NCBI RefSeq assembly: GCF_030149515.1
Contig: NZ_JASBRI010000020.1
Coordinates: 62,001 to 126,000 of the forward strand
Reading direction: 5' to 3'
Source of the DNA: Maricaulis sp.
Lineage (GTDB): Bacteria > Pseudomonadota > Alphaproteobacteria > Caulobacterales > Maricaulaceae
Length of the DNA stretch: 64,000 nucleotides
Part shown: positions 48,733 to 54,911 of the stretch, piece after piece
Layout of the letters: each line of letters starts with the position of its first letter
How positions within the stretch are numbered: the first letter of the stretch is position 1
Position numbers and translations under genes: made by a program
The notes under the pieces: model-generated
Told to the model about the DNA's origin: nothing
The model's database searches: none
What the model saw: the letters and a program-made list of their open reading frames with translations, nothing else

Positions 48733-48765
48733 AGCCTGTCCAGCCCGCGACTCTCAGGACAGGCT
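48733..48765 (-). terminator. Possible terminator of tolC
   Basis: AGCCTGTCC and GGACAGGCT form a 9-bp stem with a 15-nt loop, touching the tolC stop codon and followed on the minus strand by TTGTT. The loop is long, so strength is uncertain; transcription may continue into popZ. Confidence 0.5.
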
Positions 48766-50158
48766 AGTCCCAGGGCGTTAAGTCAAGGTTAGGGAACCCC
48801 GATTCGCTTCGATCTTCAGCAGCCGGATCGTAAATTTCCACGTTCAGCCCCAGTTGCGAGGCCGAAACCGCCCCCATCGCCTGCAGAAGACGGTAGCCGG
48901 CCACGTAGGAATCCCGTTCCGCGGTCACCAGGGTGAGCCGCGATTCCAGAAGTTCCTGTTCCGCATCAAGCACATCGAGCGTGGTCCGGATGCCCACATA
49001 GGCCTCCTGCTCGACCCCGTCGAGCGCAATCTCGTTGGCCCGCACGGCCTGGCGCGAGGACTCGATCACCGCCAGCGACGCCATGTAGGCGCTCCAGGCA
49101 TTGGTGACGCCTTCGGTGACCTGACGGCGCGCCTCGCGCACCTGGAAACGGGCTTCATCCTCCTGGGCGAGCGCGGCGCGAACACGCGACCGATTCAACC
49201 CGCCGGTGAAAAGCGGCACCGAAATCTCGCCACGCACAACCGTGGAATCGCGGACATCGCCGGAAAAGTTCGAATCGCGGGCCGAGGAATGCGACGCGTT
49301 CAGGGACACTTGCGGCCGCAGATTGGCGCGGGCGATCCGGATCGCGTGCCGGGCGGCCTGTTCCGCATACTGGGCCGCCAGCAATTGCGGGCTGGACGCA
49401 TAGGCATATTCGGCGGCGTCGGCGAGCGCGTCCGGCATGTCCGGCAGGGCCGGCGGTTCGGACAGGGTCGCCGGCGGCTGGCCCGTCACGCGTTCATAAT
49501 AGGCGCGGCTGGTCGAGAGCTGTGACTGGGCTGCGGACAATTGCGCCTGGGCGCCGGACAGGCGCGCCTCGGCCTGGGCCACATCGGTGCGGGTGATCTC
49601 GCCGACTTCGAAACGGTCGCGCGCCGCCTGCAGGTGCTGGGCGAGCACTTCGGCATTGTTGCGGCGGATCTCGACCACTTCGGCATCGCGCCGCACATCC
49701 ATGAAGGCCGTCACCGCGTCCACGAGCACAGTCTGCTCGGTGGCCCGCAGGGTTTCCCGGCCGGCCATGATGACCGCAGTCGCCTGATCGATCGAACCGC
49801 TGATCCGGCCGCCCTGGTAGATCGCCTGGCTGGCACTGATGGAATAATTCTTCGGCGTCGCATCGCTTTCGCTGTTCGAGGGCACGCGCTGGCCGTTGAT
49901 GACGAAGGTGCTTTCCGATTCCACGTGCTGGCGCGAGATCGAGGCAGAAGCCGACACCGACGGCAAACGCCCCGCCTGGGCTTGCACCCTCTGCTCGTCC
50001 GTGGCCCGCAAGCGTGCGCGCTCGGCCTGCAGGGTCGGATTGGAATTATAGGCCAGCGCCAGTGTCTCCTCGAGCGACTGGCCCGCCGCGACGCCCGACA
50101 TTGCCAGCATGGACACACCGCCAGCCAGAGCCAGCGTCCAGTTTCTAAACCGCGTCAT
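48764..50158 (-). CDS. tolC: TolC-family outer membrane efflux protein
   Basis: A 464-aa outer-membrane channel protein. A signal peptide (LALAGGVSMLAMSGVAAGQ) precedes two OEP repeats, each a long helical and strand hairpin: ETLALAYNSNPTLQAERARLRATDEQ and ADAAEYAYASSPQLLAAQYAEQAARHAIRIA open each half. LDVLDAEQELLESRLTLVTAERD closes the second. It works with inner-membrane exporters and adaptors (type I secretion or RND efflux), none of which lies in the window. A TetR-like operator overlaps its likely promoter. Confidence 0.94.
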   Translation of the reverse strand: MTRFRNWTLALAGGVSMLAMSGVAAGQSLEETLALAYNSNPTLQAERARLRATDEQRVQAQAGRLPSVSASASISRQHVESESTFVINGQRVPSNSESDATPKNYSISASQAIYQGGRISGSIDQATAVIMAGRETLRATEQTVLVDAVTAFMDVRRDAEVVEIRRNNAEVLAQHLQAARDRFEVGEITRTDVAQAEARLSGAQAQLSAAQSQLSTSRAYYERVTGQPPATLSEPPALPDMPDALADAAEYAYASSPQLLAAQYAEQAARHAIRIARANLRPQVSLNASHSSARDSNFSGDVRDSTVVRGEISVPLFTGGLNRSRVRAALAQEDEARFQVREARRQVTEGVTNAWSAYMASLAVIESSRQAVRANEIALDGVEQEAYVGIRTTLDVLDAEQELLESRLTLVTAERDSYVAGYRLLQAMGAVSASQLGLNVEIYDPAAEDRSESGFPNLDLTPWD

Positions 50159-50257
50159 CTACGCACCCCTCGAACCGGCAGGCCATCTGCGGCCTGTCCC
50201 CTGTGGAAACCATAATAACGCCGGCTGGCCCCAAAGCCAGCGACGCGATGTCGCTTG

Positions 50258-50296
50258 CATATAGGAAGCCCTCGCACAGAAGTGAACGCCGTTCAC
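50258..50296 (-). promoter_or_regulatory. tolC promoter with TetR-type operator
   Basis: On the minus strand TTCACT (50286-50281), a 17-bp gap and TATATG (50263-50258) make a plausible promoter 100 bp before tolC. The perfect odd dyad GTGAACG-c-CGTTCAC (50282-50296) covers the -35. This form is usual for TetR-family repressors of efflux genes. No TetR gene lies in the window. Confidence 0.65.
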
Positions 50297-50380
50297 CTGA
50301 ATTTTTCGCAAGCTGGATCAAGCGTTGGGCATCGACACTGCTAACGCGAGCGCTGGCAGATTCCGTCGCCGCCGGCTGCC

Positions 50381-51034
50381 CTAGAACGCGAAGCGGGGTT
50401 CGGCCTCGAAACCGGGCAGGACTGCGGCACTGGCATCGAACACGACGCGTTCGCCGATGCCGGCACCGGACCGGGAGAACACCGTCGCCTTGCCGACCGG
50501 CCCATTGCGCACGATGACTACGAGCCGGCCGCCTTCGGCCAGCTGGTCGAACCAGGCATCGGGAACCGTGTCGACCGATCCATTGACGAAAATCACGTCG
50601 AACGGCCCCTGCTTGGGCACGCCGGCCTTGGGGTCGCCTTCAACGACAACCGCATTGTCGGCACCAACCTCGGACAGGAGGGCCGAGGACCGGGACAGAC
50701 CGTCCTCATCGTCCTCCACGCCGACAACGGTCTCGGCCATACGCGCCAGGATCGCCGTGGAATAGCCGCGCCCGCCCGCGATATCGAGCACGACCTCGTG
50801 GGGCTGGATGTCGGCCGCGTGGATCAGCTTGGCCAGGTCGCGCGGACGCATCAGCGTACGCGTCTCGCTGGTCGCCACCTGCGTGTCGGCATAGGCAGCG
50901 GCGCGGCGCGAACGCGGCACGAAGAGATGGCGCGGTATGTCCAGGAAAGCCGCGATCAGACGCCGGTCGGTAACGTCGGCCGGGCGGATCTGGCTATCCA
51001 CCATATGCTTGCGCGCCTGTTCGAATTCGCTCAC
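50381..51034 (-). CDS. pcm: Protein-L-isoaspartate O-methyltransferase family
   Basis: A 217-aa SAM-dependent enzyme of the PCMT family, which repairs isoaspartyl residues in aged proteins. Visible are the N-terminal MVDSQIRPADVTDRRLIAAFLDIPRHLFVP, SAM motif I VVLDIAGGRGYSTAILARM and the C-terminal strand GRLVVIVRNG. The usual PCMT threonine-serine loop (QTISQP) is changed to SETRTLMRP, so activity on isoaspartate is not certain. Start at GTG 51034 with GGGAGAG upstream; the track's 51085 start lacks support. Upstream of tolC on the same strand, as in Caulobacter. Confidence 0.85.
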   Translation of the reverse strand: MSEFEQARKHMVDSQIRPADVTDRRLIAAFLDIPRHLFVPRSRRAAAYADTQVATSETRTLMRPRDLAKLIHAADIQPHEVVLDIAGGRGYSTAILARMAETVVGVEDDEDGLSRSSALLSEVGADNAVVVEGDPKAGVPKQGPFDVIFVNGSVDTVPDAWFDQLAEGGRLVVIVRNGPVGKATVFSRSGAGIGERVVFDASAAVLPGFEAEPRFAF

Positions 51035-51207
51035 GGGTCTCTCCCTCGCGGAACCGGTTCGCGCTGATATATCCTGCCCGCACAAAACTCGGCAACCACC
51101 CCACTGCGTGCGGGGCTATTTGCGGCGCGGGCAATTTCACATACCGGTGATGTGGCGGATTGCTCCGCTCGCGCACACCGGTTATAGCTCCCGGCTCGCA
51201 AGTCAGC

Positions 51208-51281
51208 GGCACCGTGGCGGAGTGGCTACGCAGAGGACTGCAAATCCTTGTACCCCGGTTCGATTCCGGGCGGTGCCTCCA
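51208..51281 (+). tRNA. tRNA-Cys (GCA)
   Basis: A full cloverleaf: acceptor GGCACCG pairs with CGGTGCC, D arm GCG...CGC, anticodon stem GAGGA/TCCTT around the loop CTGCAAA (anticodon GCA), T arm CCCGG-TTCGATT-CCGGG, discriminator T and an encoded CCA. Confidence 0.97.
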
Positions 51282-51333: not shown

Positions 51334-51687
51334 TTACGCGCGCACCGTGCCGTCCGGATTGACGCCGGCCTTTTCCAGCTCTGCATCCAGCCTGCCCGTC
51401 AGAAACAGGGCATACATGCGATAATCGCCGATCAGCGACCAGAGCGGATAGGTGAAGGTGGCCGGCTTGTTGCGCTCGACGAAGGCGTGGCTGACCCAGG
51501 CGAAGAAATAGCCCGCCACGGGCACCGCCGCGAGCGCCCACCAGGTCCGCGTCACCACGGCGCCGATCAGTACCAGGATGGCCAGGGTCGAACCGACATA
51601 GTGCCAGGCACGTGTCGCCGGCCTGGCGTGTTCGCGCAGATAGAAGGGCCAGAAGGACCCGAAAGTCTCGTGTTCGCGCATCGCCAT
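51334..51687 (-). CDS. Mpo1-like (DUF962) membrane protein
   Basis: A 117-aa membrane protein of the DUF962/Mpo1 family. Yeast Mpo1 is an iron-dependent dioxygenase of 2-hydroxy fatty acids. Family marks are SFWPFYLREHARPATRAWHYVGST at the N-terminus and the histidine in GYFFAWVSHAFVERNKPATFTYPLWSLIGDYRMY. The His residues (REH, WHYVG, SHAF) are those expected to bind iron. Two to three helices. Lies between tRNA-Cys and the candidate small RNA, opposite in direction to both. Confidence 0.88.
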   Translation of the reverse strand: MAMREHETFGSFWPFYLREHARPATRAWHYVGSTLAILVLIGAVVTRTWWALAAVPVAGYFFAWVSHAFVERNKPATFTYPLWSLIGDYRMYALFLTGRLDAELEKAGVNPDGTVRA

Positions 51688-51851
51688 CTCCCCTGATGCA
51701 ACCGGTCCGAATCAGTAGCACGGCAGGCGCCGGGCCGCGAGACAGGTTCGGGCGAGGTTATCGCACTCTCAACGGCAAAGACCGCATTTCCCGGAAATCA
51801 TTAGGCTTTGGGCAAGGACGATGAACCAAACGCCCAATTCTACACGCCCGA

Positions 51852-51866
51852 TTAACCTACTCTTAA
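51852..51866 (+). promoter_or_regulatory. CtrA-type box TTAA-N7-TTAA
   Basis: TTAACCTACTCTTAA is an exact match to the full CtrA consensus TTAA-N7-TTAA. It lies about 66 bp before the terminator stem and would place a start of transcription near 51890. TTAA is rare in this GC-rich window, which makes a chance hit less likely. Confidence 0.7.
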
Positions 51867-51889
51867 GGGTTCTGACCCAATCCTTCACA

Positions 51890-51962
51890 CGTCTTCCCGT
51901 GAAGACACCCCACCATCCACCCAATGCCTTTTCGGGAGCCTCTGCGGCTCCCGATTTTTTTT
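51890..51962 (+). ncRNA. Candidate CtrA-controlled small RNA
   Basis: Downstream of the CtrA box come two clean hairpins: GTCTTC-ccgt-GAAGAC (51891-51906) and the terminator stem, separated by a C/A-rich single strand (CACCCCACCATCCACCCAAT). An RNA from about 51890 would be some 70 nt with a 3' terminator. There is no protein-coding gene on this strand to which the terminator could belong, other than a distant tRNA-Cys. The start and the RNA itself are inferred. Confidence 0.5.
51932..51962 (+). terminator. Strong Rho-independent terminator, no coding gene upstream
   Basis: TCGGGAGCC-tctgc-GGCTCCCGA forms a 9-bp perfect stem, followed by eight T residues. It is the best intrinsic terminator in the window and points along the plus strand. 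Confidence 0.92.
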
Positions 51963-52052
51963 GCAGGAAGTCCCTGCATCTTGCGCAGCAGGGTGCTTGC
52001 GCGGCGAGCCGAAGCTCTGATAAAAGCCACGCCTCGCTTGCGAGACATGTGT

Positions 52053-52128
52053 TCCCCGGTAGCTCAGTTGGTAGAGCAGGTGACTGTTAATCACCGGGTC
52101 GGCGGTTCGAGCCCGTCCCGGGGAGCCA
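52053..52128 (+). tRNA. tRNA-Asn (GTT)
   Basis: Acceptor TCCCCGG pairs with CCGGGGA; D arm GCTC...GAGC; anticodon loop CTGTTAA with GTT; T loop TTCGAGC; discriminator G and encoded CCA. A complete cloverleaf. Confidence 0.97.
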
Positions 52129-52187: not shown

Positions 52188-52913
52188 CTATTCCGCAAGG
52201 CGTTCGTCCAGTGCGCGGGCCGCTTCGAAGAAGCGCTGCCGCAAGGCCGCTGCGTGGGGATTGTGGCGCTCGATCGCCCGGAAAAGTTCGTCGCTGTCCT
52301 GGGAGACCAGACGCGCCGCCTCGGCAAGCAGATCGTAGCTGCGTGTCGTATAGGGCGCTTCGGGCAGGCCGAGATCGGTAATCACCCGCGACACCAGATG
52401 CGTCAGTGCCTGCACGCTGGCCATGGTGCGGTCATGGGTGTCGGCGTCCGAGACATGCATGGCAAGGCCGAGCCTGTCACCCAGGAAGGCGGCGACACAC
52501 TCCGTATCCACGCCCGGTCCGGGGCACAGGACGATCGACTGACCTGCCACGCCGTCTGCCGCACTTTGCGGACCGAACAGGGGGTGCGTTCCGAGAATGC
52601 GCGTTTGCGGGGGCAATTCCTCGTGCAGGATGCGCATGGGCTCCAGCTTCACCGAGGCCACGTCGAGGACCAGCGCGCCGGGCTGCAAATGCGGCGCGAT
52701 GGCTGCGGCGGCCTGCGCCATGGCCTGCACCGGCACGGCCAGGATCACGCAGGGCTGCGCGGCTGCCTCCGCCAGTCCGGCCAGGCGCACGCCCGGTACG
52801 TCCGGCACATCAGGATCGTAGCCAGTCAGCTCCGCGTGCGGAGCCAGATTCCGGGCTGCCAGTGCCCCGAAGGCACCCAGGCCAATGAGACCGATACGGG
52901 GGCGCTCGCTCAT
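52188..52913 (-). CDS. Prephenate/arogenate dehydrogenase family protein
   Basis: A 241-aa NAD(P)-dependent dehydrogenase of tyrosine synthesis. The dinucleotide fold opens with RIGLIGLGAFGALAARNL; LVLDVASVKLEPMRI and the substrate motif GTHPLFGPQSA identify the prephenate dehydrogenase family. It is shorter than full TyrA/TyrC (about 280-310 aa), with the C-terminal helical dimer region reduced, and has no chorismate mutase or ACT domain. Substrate choice between prephenate and arogenate cannot be read here. Convergent with tRNA-Asn; upstream ABC gene is 90 bp away. Confidence 0.88.
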   Translation of the reverse strand: MSERPRIGLIGLGAFGALAARNLAPHAELTGYDPDVPDVPGVRLAGLAEAAAQPCVILAVPVQAMAQAAAAIAPHLQPGALVLDVASVKLEPMRILHEELPPQTRILGTHPLFGPQSAADGVAGQSIVLCPGPGVDTECVAAFLGDRLGLAMHVSDADTHDRTMASVQALTHLVSRVITDLGLPEAPYTTRSYDLLAEAARLVSQDSDELFRAIERHNPHAAALRQRFFEAARALDERLAE

Positions 52914-53003: not shown

Positions 53004-54911
53004 TCAGTGCACCACACCCGTGTCAGCGGGAAATGCGATCACTTTGCCATCCTCGCCCGCTTCGCTCTGGCGCTTCCACATCGCGGCATAGAGCCCTTCG
53101 CGTGCAAGAAGTTCGGCATGGGTTCCGGATTCCGCAACCCGGCCCTCGTCGAGCACGAAAATGCGGTCGGCCCGGGCGATCGTGGACAGGCGGTGCGCCA
53201 CGGCGACGGTCGTGCGCCCCCTGGCGGCCTCGGCCAGGGCCATCTGCACATCCGTCTCGGTCTGGCTGTCCAGCGCGGATGTGGCCTCGTCCAGGACCAG
53301 GATGGCCGGATTTTTCAGGATGGCGCGGGCCACGCCCACGCGCTGCTTCTCGCCGCCGGAGAGCTTCAGTCCGCGCTCGCCGACCCGGGTTTCCAGCCCG
53401 TCCGGCAATGCATCCACGAAATCGGCCAGGCGCGCACGCTCCAGCACGTCGCGGATCTCCGCCTCGCTCGCATCCGGACGCCCGTAGACGATGTTGGACC
53501 GCAGCGTGTCGTTGAACAGGACCACGTCCTGGGGCACCAGGCCCAGCGCCTCGCGCAGGCTTTCCTGGGTGAGATGGGCGATATCCTGTCCGTCTATCTC
53601 GACACGCCCCGTATCGGGGTCGTAGAAGCGGAACAGGAGCCGCAGCACGGTCGACTTGCCCGCACCCGAGGGGCCGCAAATCCCCACGAAACTGCCAGCC
53701 GGTATATCCAGGTTCACCCCATTGACCGAACGCGAACGCCCGTCATGGGTGAAGCTTACGGTCTCGAACCGGACCGCCCCGCCCGCCAGATGCAGCGGTT
53801 GCGCATCCGGCGCATCGGCCACTTCGGGCTTGAGTGCCAGGGTCTCATAGACACGTTCCATGTCGACCGCGCCCTGCTTGATCTCGCGATAGGCCCAGCC
53901 GAGAATGTTCAGCGGCTGATAGATATTCATCAGGATCATCGTCACCGCAGCCACATCGCCGGGCTGCAGCACGCCGTTCCACGCCTTCCAGCCCGCCGTC
54001 AGCGCCATCGCCAGCAGTCCGCCATTCATGATCAGCGCCTGGGTGCCGTTCAGCAATGCCAGCGAGGACTGCGACCGCGCGGCCGCCCTGGCGTAGCGGG
54101 TCATCGCCCCGTCAAAGGCCTCGGATTCGCGGCGCTCGGCGGCAAAGGCCTTTACCGTCTCGAAATTGATCAGGCTGTCGACCGCCCGCGCCGATGCCTC
54201 GTTGTCGGCCTCGTTCATGGTGCGCCGGATCTTCACGCGCCATTCGGTCACCGACCAGGTCAGGGCCATGTAGATGGCCACGGTGACAATGGCGATGGCG
54301 GCAAATTCCCAGCCGTATTTCACGCTGAGCACTCCGGCCGCGAGGACGAGCTCCAGCAGCGTCGGGGCAATGTTGAAGATCAAAAAACGCATCAGGAAAT
54401 CGACGGCCCGCGCGCCGCGTTCGATGATGCGGTTGAGAGCGCCGGTCCGCTTGGTCTGGTGATAGCCGATCGACAGGCCCTGGACGTGGGCGAAGGCCTT
54501 CACCGCCGTCAGGCGCTGGGCGTCCTGGCTGACCGGGGCGAACAGGGCATCGCGCAATTGCGGCGCTCCCACCGACATGAAACGCGCCACGGCATAGGCG
54601 ATGAAGGCCAGCGCAAAGGTTCCGGCAATGCCCGACAGCGCCGCCGCGGCTGCTCCGTCCCGGGAGTTGCCCCCCTCACCGCTACCGACATGCCGGGAGA
54701 TCAGGTTGATGCCGTCGCCGAAAAAGACCGGCGCGGACACGGCGAAGAGTTTCGCCAGTATGGTCAGGCCCAGCGCGACGCCCATGCGAAAGCGCCACTT
54801 GGCCATTTCCGGCGACGCCAGAAGCGCGAACAGGCGCAGCATCGTTGTGCCGAGAGATCCCTGGGGGGCAGACTTGGCCTCGGCCTCGGTATCGGTGGGG
54901 AGCGGTCTCAT
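53004..54911 (-). CDS. Atm1-type ABC exporter (fused permease and ATPase)
   Basis: A 635-aa half-transporter that dimerises in the inner membrane. Six helices are followed by an ATPase with Walker A GPSGAGKST, signature LSGGEKQRV, Walker B ILVLDEAT and the switch His in VAHRLSTIARAD. The permease segment with FGDGINLISRH, RGARAVDFLMRFLIFNIAPTLLEL and WRVKIRRTMNEADNEASARAVDSLINFETVKAF matches the mitochondrial Atm1 / bacterial NaAtm1 branch, which exports glutathione conjugates and sulfur-containing species and aids heavy-metal tolerance. Length is normal. Confidence 0.92.
   Translation of the reverse strand: MRPLPTDTEAEAKSAPQGSLGTTMLRLFALLASPEMAKWRFRMGVALGLTILAKLFAVSAPVFFGDGINLISRHVGSGEGGNSRDGAAAAALSGIAGTFALAFIAYAVARFMSVGAPQLRDALFAPVSQDAQRLTAVKAFAHVQGLSIGYHQTKRTGALNRIIERGARAVDFLMRFLIFNIAPTLLELVLAAGVLSVKYGWEFAAIAIVTVAIYMALTWSVTEWRVKIRRTMNEADNEASARAVDSLINFETVKAFAAERRESEAFDGAMTRYARAAARSQSSLALLNGTQALIMNGGLLAMALTAGWKAWNGVLQPGDVAAVTMILMNIYQPLNILGWAYREIKQGAVDMERVYETLALKPEVADAPDAQPLHLAGGAVRFETVSFTHDGRSRSVNGVNLDIPAGSFVGICGPSGAGKSTVLRLLFRFYDPDTGRVEIDGQDIAHLTQESLREALGLVPQDVVLFNDTLRSNIVYGRPDASEAEIRDVLERARLADFVDALPDGLETRVGERGLKLSGGEKQRVGVARAILKNPAILVLDEATSALDSQTETDVQMALAEAARGRTTVAVAHRLSTIARADRIFVLDEGRVAESGTHAELLAREGLYAAMWKRQSEAGEDGKVIAFPADTGVVH

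Follow-up and report, generated by a model that had tools for sequence, protein, structure and literature searches.

The question raised by the spacer between two tRNA genes in this Maricaulis sp. genome is whether an exact CtrA box lying ahead of a terminator marks a regulatory RNA controlled by CtrA or has some humbler explanation. The window, by which we mean the whole 64,000-nucleotide stretch of DNA analysed, carries a tRNA-Cys gene (GCA anticodon, 51208..51281, plus strand) and a tRNA-Asn gene (GTT anticodon, 52053..52128, plus strand) on either side of the element. The adjacent protein genes, an Mpo1-like gene (51334-51687) and a prephenate dehydrogenase gene (52188-52913), are both on the minus strand, which confirms the initial annotation in its statement that no coding gene on the plus strand accounts for the terminator. 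Small overlapping open reading frames at the locus (51821-52090 on the plus strand, and others) have no Pfam match.

All parts of the element lie on the plus strand. The CtrA full box, TTAACCTACTCTTAA, is an exact TTAA-N7-TTAA at 51852..51866, recognized by its sequence, its family-wide position and an information-content profile. Its end is separated by 24 nt from a 5' hairpin of 6 bp, GTCTTC-CCGT-GAAGAC (51891..51906), identified by folding and by pairing across relatives. A -10-like hexamer, AATCCT, falls between them at 51879..51884 and has the pattern xAxxxT; its A/T columns are conserved, and it may be the promoter's -10 element. Downstream of the hairpin is a C/A-rich unpaired stretch, ACCCCACCATCCACCCAATGCCTTT (51907..51931), and then an intrinsic terminator (51932..51962) supported by the terminator scan, the fold and conservation; it consists of a 9-bp stem, TCGGGAGCC-TCTGC-GGCTCCCGA, at 51932-51954, followed by T8 at 51955-51962. 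The exact box, the two hairpins and the T8 run first described for this locus are thus all present. From the promoter spacing, the fold and the terminator we predict an sRNA gene of about 72 nt at 51891..51962, whose transcript would run from the first G of the 5' hairpin into the T tract.

A scan of 4 kb lists seven terminators, of which this one comes first and ends in the longest T run. An 85-nt fold has a free energy of -25.3 kcal/mol (z = -4.74), and none of 200 shuffled sequences folded equally well. Judged from the sequence, positions 51852-51962 of the plus strand are a complete small-RNA gene layout, well above chance.

The element is not confined to this genome. BLAST detects it once each in 34 of 61 genomes, including its own and all 18 others of the same genus, and a covariance model built from 30 members recovers it from 134 of 200 genomes belonging to the order, usually as a single copy. 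Among the matches listed from a pattern scan are Phenylobacterium, Caulobacter, Hyphomonas, Hirschia, Robiginitomaculum, Hellea, Ponticaulis, Glycocaulis, Rhizomicrobium and others. Most genera of the order carry the RNA, and so do several alphaproteobacterial lineages beyond it; in a class-wide sample of 385 genomes, strong matches outside the order are restricted to about 16 genomes from a handful of families, so the family is old without being universal. Several genomes of the order (family f5 and the part of f3 that is g21) give no match to the covariance model, reflecting either loss or strong divergence, and some g21 genomes have weak matches to the Rfam family RF01519. One genome, G135, carries two copies, L248 (G135:C20) and L249 (G135:C22), the second with a CtrA-like box and no tRNA gene nearby. 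A further candidate, L218, was rejected as a false match. The sRNA family has probably been inherited vertically.

The promoter is as constant as the RNA. A CtrA full box matching at least seven of the eight defining letters is present in 187 of 188 distinct members, with all eight letters in 119, and it nearly always starts 38 to 40 nt ahead of the hairpin, mostly 38 or 39. Such boxes occur in 0.6% of shuffled upstream DNA and 0.3% of distal windows. The members were gathered by the RNA core and not by the box, the sole exception being the first same-genus BLAST query, which included upstream DNA. An information-content profile of 136 non-redundant members (less than 70% identity upstream) reads TTAAC-N6-TTAACC, then the xAxxxT hexamer, then the hairpin G at about +1, the A at box+27 and the T at box+31 being conserved; the box is the dominant conserved block, and the DNA farther upstream is nearly devoid of information. 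In Maricaulis the box starts at -39, and the -10-like hexamer is therefore shifted by one.

This conservation also bears on the most economical alternative, in which a box arisen by chance sits beside a commonplace terminator among tRNA genes and there is no regulatory RNA at all. AT-richer spacers can indeed yield TTAA-N7-TTAA by chance, but they would not be expected to hold the box at a fixed position, together with core and terminator, across lineages; the recurrence of the element by BLAST and by covariance model, with the box in all members but one, leaves this explanation a negligible probability.

In Caulobacter, activated promoters have a full CtrA motif near -35, and at -39 in ctrA P2, and the activity of such full-motif promoters peaks in predivisional cells (PMC4287350). 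The spacing found here is that of CtrA-activated promoters of the full-site class, the 5' nucleotide of the box falling within -35 to -39 of the predicted start, and a CtrA gene is present in this genome as well as in each of the 36 relatives searched. We infer that CtrA activates the sRNA in Maricaulis; the box spacing, the -10-like pattern and the hairpin G start give comparative support to the original proposal that CtrA activates an RNA of about 70 nt here. Upstream of the box, a block at 51799-51835 (ATTAGG...GGCAAGGACGATgAACCAAA...CCcAATT) is kept within Maricaulis and not in other genera; it could be the binding site of a second regulator at the sRNA promoter.

Both hairpins, like the box, are conserved in relatives; a lack of such conservation is what the initial annotation had named as refuting its proposal. 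Of 188 distinct members, 187 retain the terminator, whose 5' stem arm comes in 77 versions, indicating compensatory change on a large scale. The 5' hairpin behaves differently: across 61 distinct rows, 99.1% of cells are paired, compared to 36-68% when the hairpin is slid along the alignment, and the changes are mostly U-A to U-G, with one C-G. Two-sided changes in these rows are few and show no excess over shuffles, so that covariation is weak for this hairpin.

The strongest constraint lies between the two hairpins. Across 40 aligned members of many genera and lineages, selected in part by this same core, GAAGACACCCCACCAT does not vary; remoter members retain CACCAU and the CACC that follows, and the core held in common reads CCCCACCAU-N-CACC. 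An sRNA seed typically looks like this, a single strand kept constant between two hairpins, and the C/A-rich stretch is probably the region that pairs with targets.

The element turns out to have known relatives. At Rfam thresholds only the two tRNAs are recognized in the window, and a permissive scan adds weak matches to ncS16 and SNORD23. RF01519, the family of sRNA CC0196 (gathering score 35 bits), gives no match to the Maricaulis copy in the window, either at gathering or with E-values up to 10, and its sole match in this genome lies elsewhere, at 25.6 bits. The same model matches the control genome Caulobacter vibrioides, and the Caulobacter orthologs, likewise located ahead of tRNA-Asn, reach 95 bits, with Phenylobacterium-type members at 29-31 bits between the Caulobacter and Maricaulis groups. 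Maricaulis and Caulobacter loci have in common the tRNA-Asn neighbour, the strand, the box distance and a GAAG-N-CACC-CACCAU core, and intermediate sequences connect them. The Maricaulis RNA shares with CC0196 the 3' arm of the hairpin, the CACCAUCAC core, the terminator architecture and the CtrA-type box distance; it differs in that its core reads ACACCCCACCATCCACC where that of Caulobacter reads GGCACC-CACCATCACTG, and the terminator stem sequences are unrelated. On these resemblances the predicted Maricaulis RNA is a below-threshold, divergent homolog of RF01519, homologous by descent, and the locus is not an orphan. New here are the depth of the family, a CtrA promoter that hardly varies within it, and members that had gone unrecognised; the CC0196 family of Caulobacter was already known, though little studied. 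RF01519 covers a small part of the true range, exceeding its threshold in 20 of the 200 genomes of the order compared to 134 for the new model.

CC0196 is probably CCNA_R0004 of C. crescentus NA1000, given the CC0196 name, the orientation and a match in length: CCNA_R0004 is 133 nt long, with CCNA_00197 and CCNA_00196 flanking it on one strand (PMC6237742), and 133 nt is the distance from RNA start to tRNA-Asn in two close Caulobacter relatives (L276 and L279). This coincidence of distance and annotated length may reflect transcripts that read through into the tRNA, or else an annotation extended to it. CCNA_R0004 is up 3.7-fold after mitomycin C (PMC6237742); its annotation gives it as cell cycle regulated and credits it with one CtrA half site, and its reads are low over the cell cycle (PMC5988900). 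The box of the close Caulobacter relatives reads TTAG-N7-TTAA and might be scored as a CtrA half site. A Caulobacter sRNA study from 2008 reportedly described one of its cell-cycle-regulated sRNAs as apparently under CtrA control, which may or may not have been CC0196. CCNA_R0025, which has a full CtrA box, was considered as the Caulobacter ortholog and dropped once RF01519 had matched.

The same coincidence keeps in play a different reading of the locus, since the annotated CCNA_R0004 seems to stop where the tRNA starts, as though the 5' end of the tRNA marked the 3' end of the transcript: the CtrA promoter could drive tRNA-Asn, with hairpin and terminator forming an attenuator or a leader removed by RNase P. 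The gene order agrees with this, nearly all genomes examined having tRNA-Asn downstream on the strand of the sRNA, and many having tRNA-Cys farther upstream as well. Set against it are the strong, almost universally kept terminator, the distance from sRNA to tRNA-Asn, which varies from 131 to 475 nt among 20 sampled loci, and two family members with no tRNA-Asn nearby (L244 and the second copy, L249). Furthermore, conservation is highest in the unpaired stretch and not in a structure that might switch the terminator. The variable distance and the two members lacking tRNA-Asn make the association look like inherited gene order rather than a working connection, and we consider a tRNA leader quite improbable. 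Genes flanking the tRNA-sRNA region of the window (48764-51085 and 53004-54911) encode, to judge by their translations, a TolC-like protein, a PCMT-like methyltransferase and an ATM1-like ABC transporter; similar genes near the sRNA in some Caulobacter genomes suggest that this gene order is old.

We return, then, to an independent sRNA, and to what it might bind. In 19 Maricaulis genomes the core has few exact or near-exact complements, most of which fall within coding regions (CtaA, VDGGV-type motifs) and not at start sites, and no conserved target of long complementarity was found in these genomes. Around the starts of ctrA and gcrA, predicted duplexes are weak, and their position is not conserved among about 27 genomes. 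The CCUCC motif is missing from the core in the alignment of 40 members; with no such motif and no conserved target found, the Shine-Dalgarno pairing suggested for the exposed loop gains no specific support.

The outcome of the target search would also suit an RNA that acts on a protein, holding an RNA-binding protein through the invariant hairpin and C/A stretch without pairing to mRNA, and the conservation of both hairpin and single-strand sequence goes beyond the needs of pairing. Each molecule offers one short C/A motif, however, unlike decoys with multiple sites, and CCNA_R0004 is absent from the table of sRNAs enriched at least 3-fold with Hfq in C. crescentus (PMC11005374), although other proteins are possible partners. 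We regard a decoy role as unlikely.

The anatomy, conservation, synteny and homology of the locus are, in our judgement, best explained by an sRNA of the CC0196 family that would be driven by CtrA and would pair with mRNAs, an account that we hold to be probable. Phosphorylated CtrA on the -38/-39 box would recruit RNA polymerase, and by analogy with full-box promoters of Caulobacter the RNA would be made while CtrA is active, in predivisional cells. Transcription from the first G of the 5' hairpin to the intrinsic terminator would yield an RNA of about 72 nt, its 5' end protected by the 5' hairpin and its 3' end stabilized by the terminator hairpin and U tail. The near-invariant, unpaired CCCCACCAU-N-CACC may then pair with mRNAs near translation starts, at G/U-rich sequences such as GGUGGGG or AUGGUG, most likely reducing the translation of the targets.

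Small RNAs usually turn over fast; when the core, the location and a promoter under the master regulator all persist from order to order, the RNA presumably has an important job. We lean towards a broader view of the CC0196 RNA as an old and near-constant part of the CtrA regulon that predates the split of Caulobacterales from several alphaproteobacterial lineages, always directly activated by CtrA and serving as a general post-transcriptional arm with one invariant seed and conserved targets. Such an RNA would join the CtrA circuit to post-transcriptional control, a proposal directly testable in C. crescentus, where the RNA is CC0196, probably CCNA_R0004.

Three known systems invite comparison. 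sRNAs of the CCUCC type, with an anti-Shine-Dalgarno CCUCC in an exposed loop, occur in alphaproteobacteria, and the unpaired C-rich motif here could likewise reach G-rich ribosome-binding regions; it differs in carrying CCCCACCAU-N-CACC and no CCUCC, in its single copy and in its CtrA promoter. The Burkholderia RNA ncS16 (RF02866) has a similar layout and a CACCAU stretch, but the match scores 21.6 bits, far under the 48-bit threshold, and the family was described in Burkholderia. CcnA (CCNA_R0094), a 182-nt RNA from inside the replication origin that is reported to pair with the 5' regions of ctrA and gcrA (PMC8959179), resembles the RNA described here in its CtrA-box promoter, its exposed C-rich element (a CCCC loop in CcnA) and its cell-cycle setting (PMC8959179), whereas the Maricaulis gene would encode an RNA of about 72 nt and lies between tRNA-Cys and tRNA-Asn.
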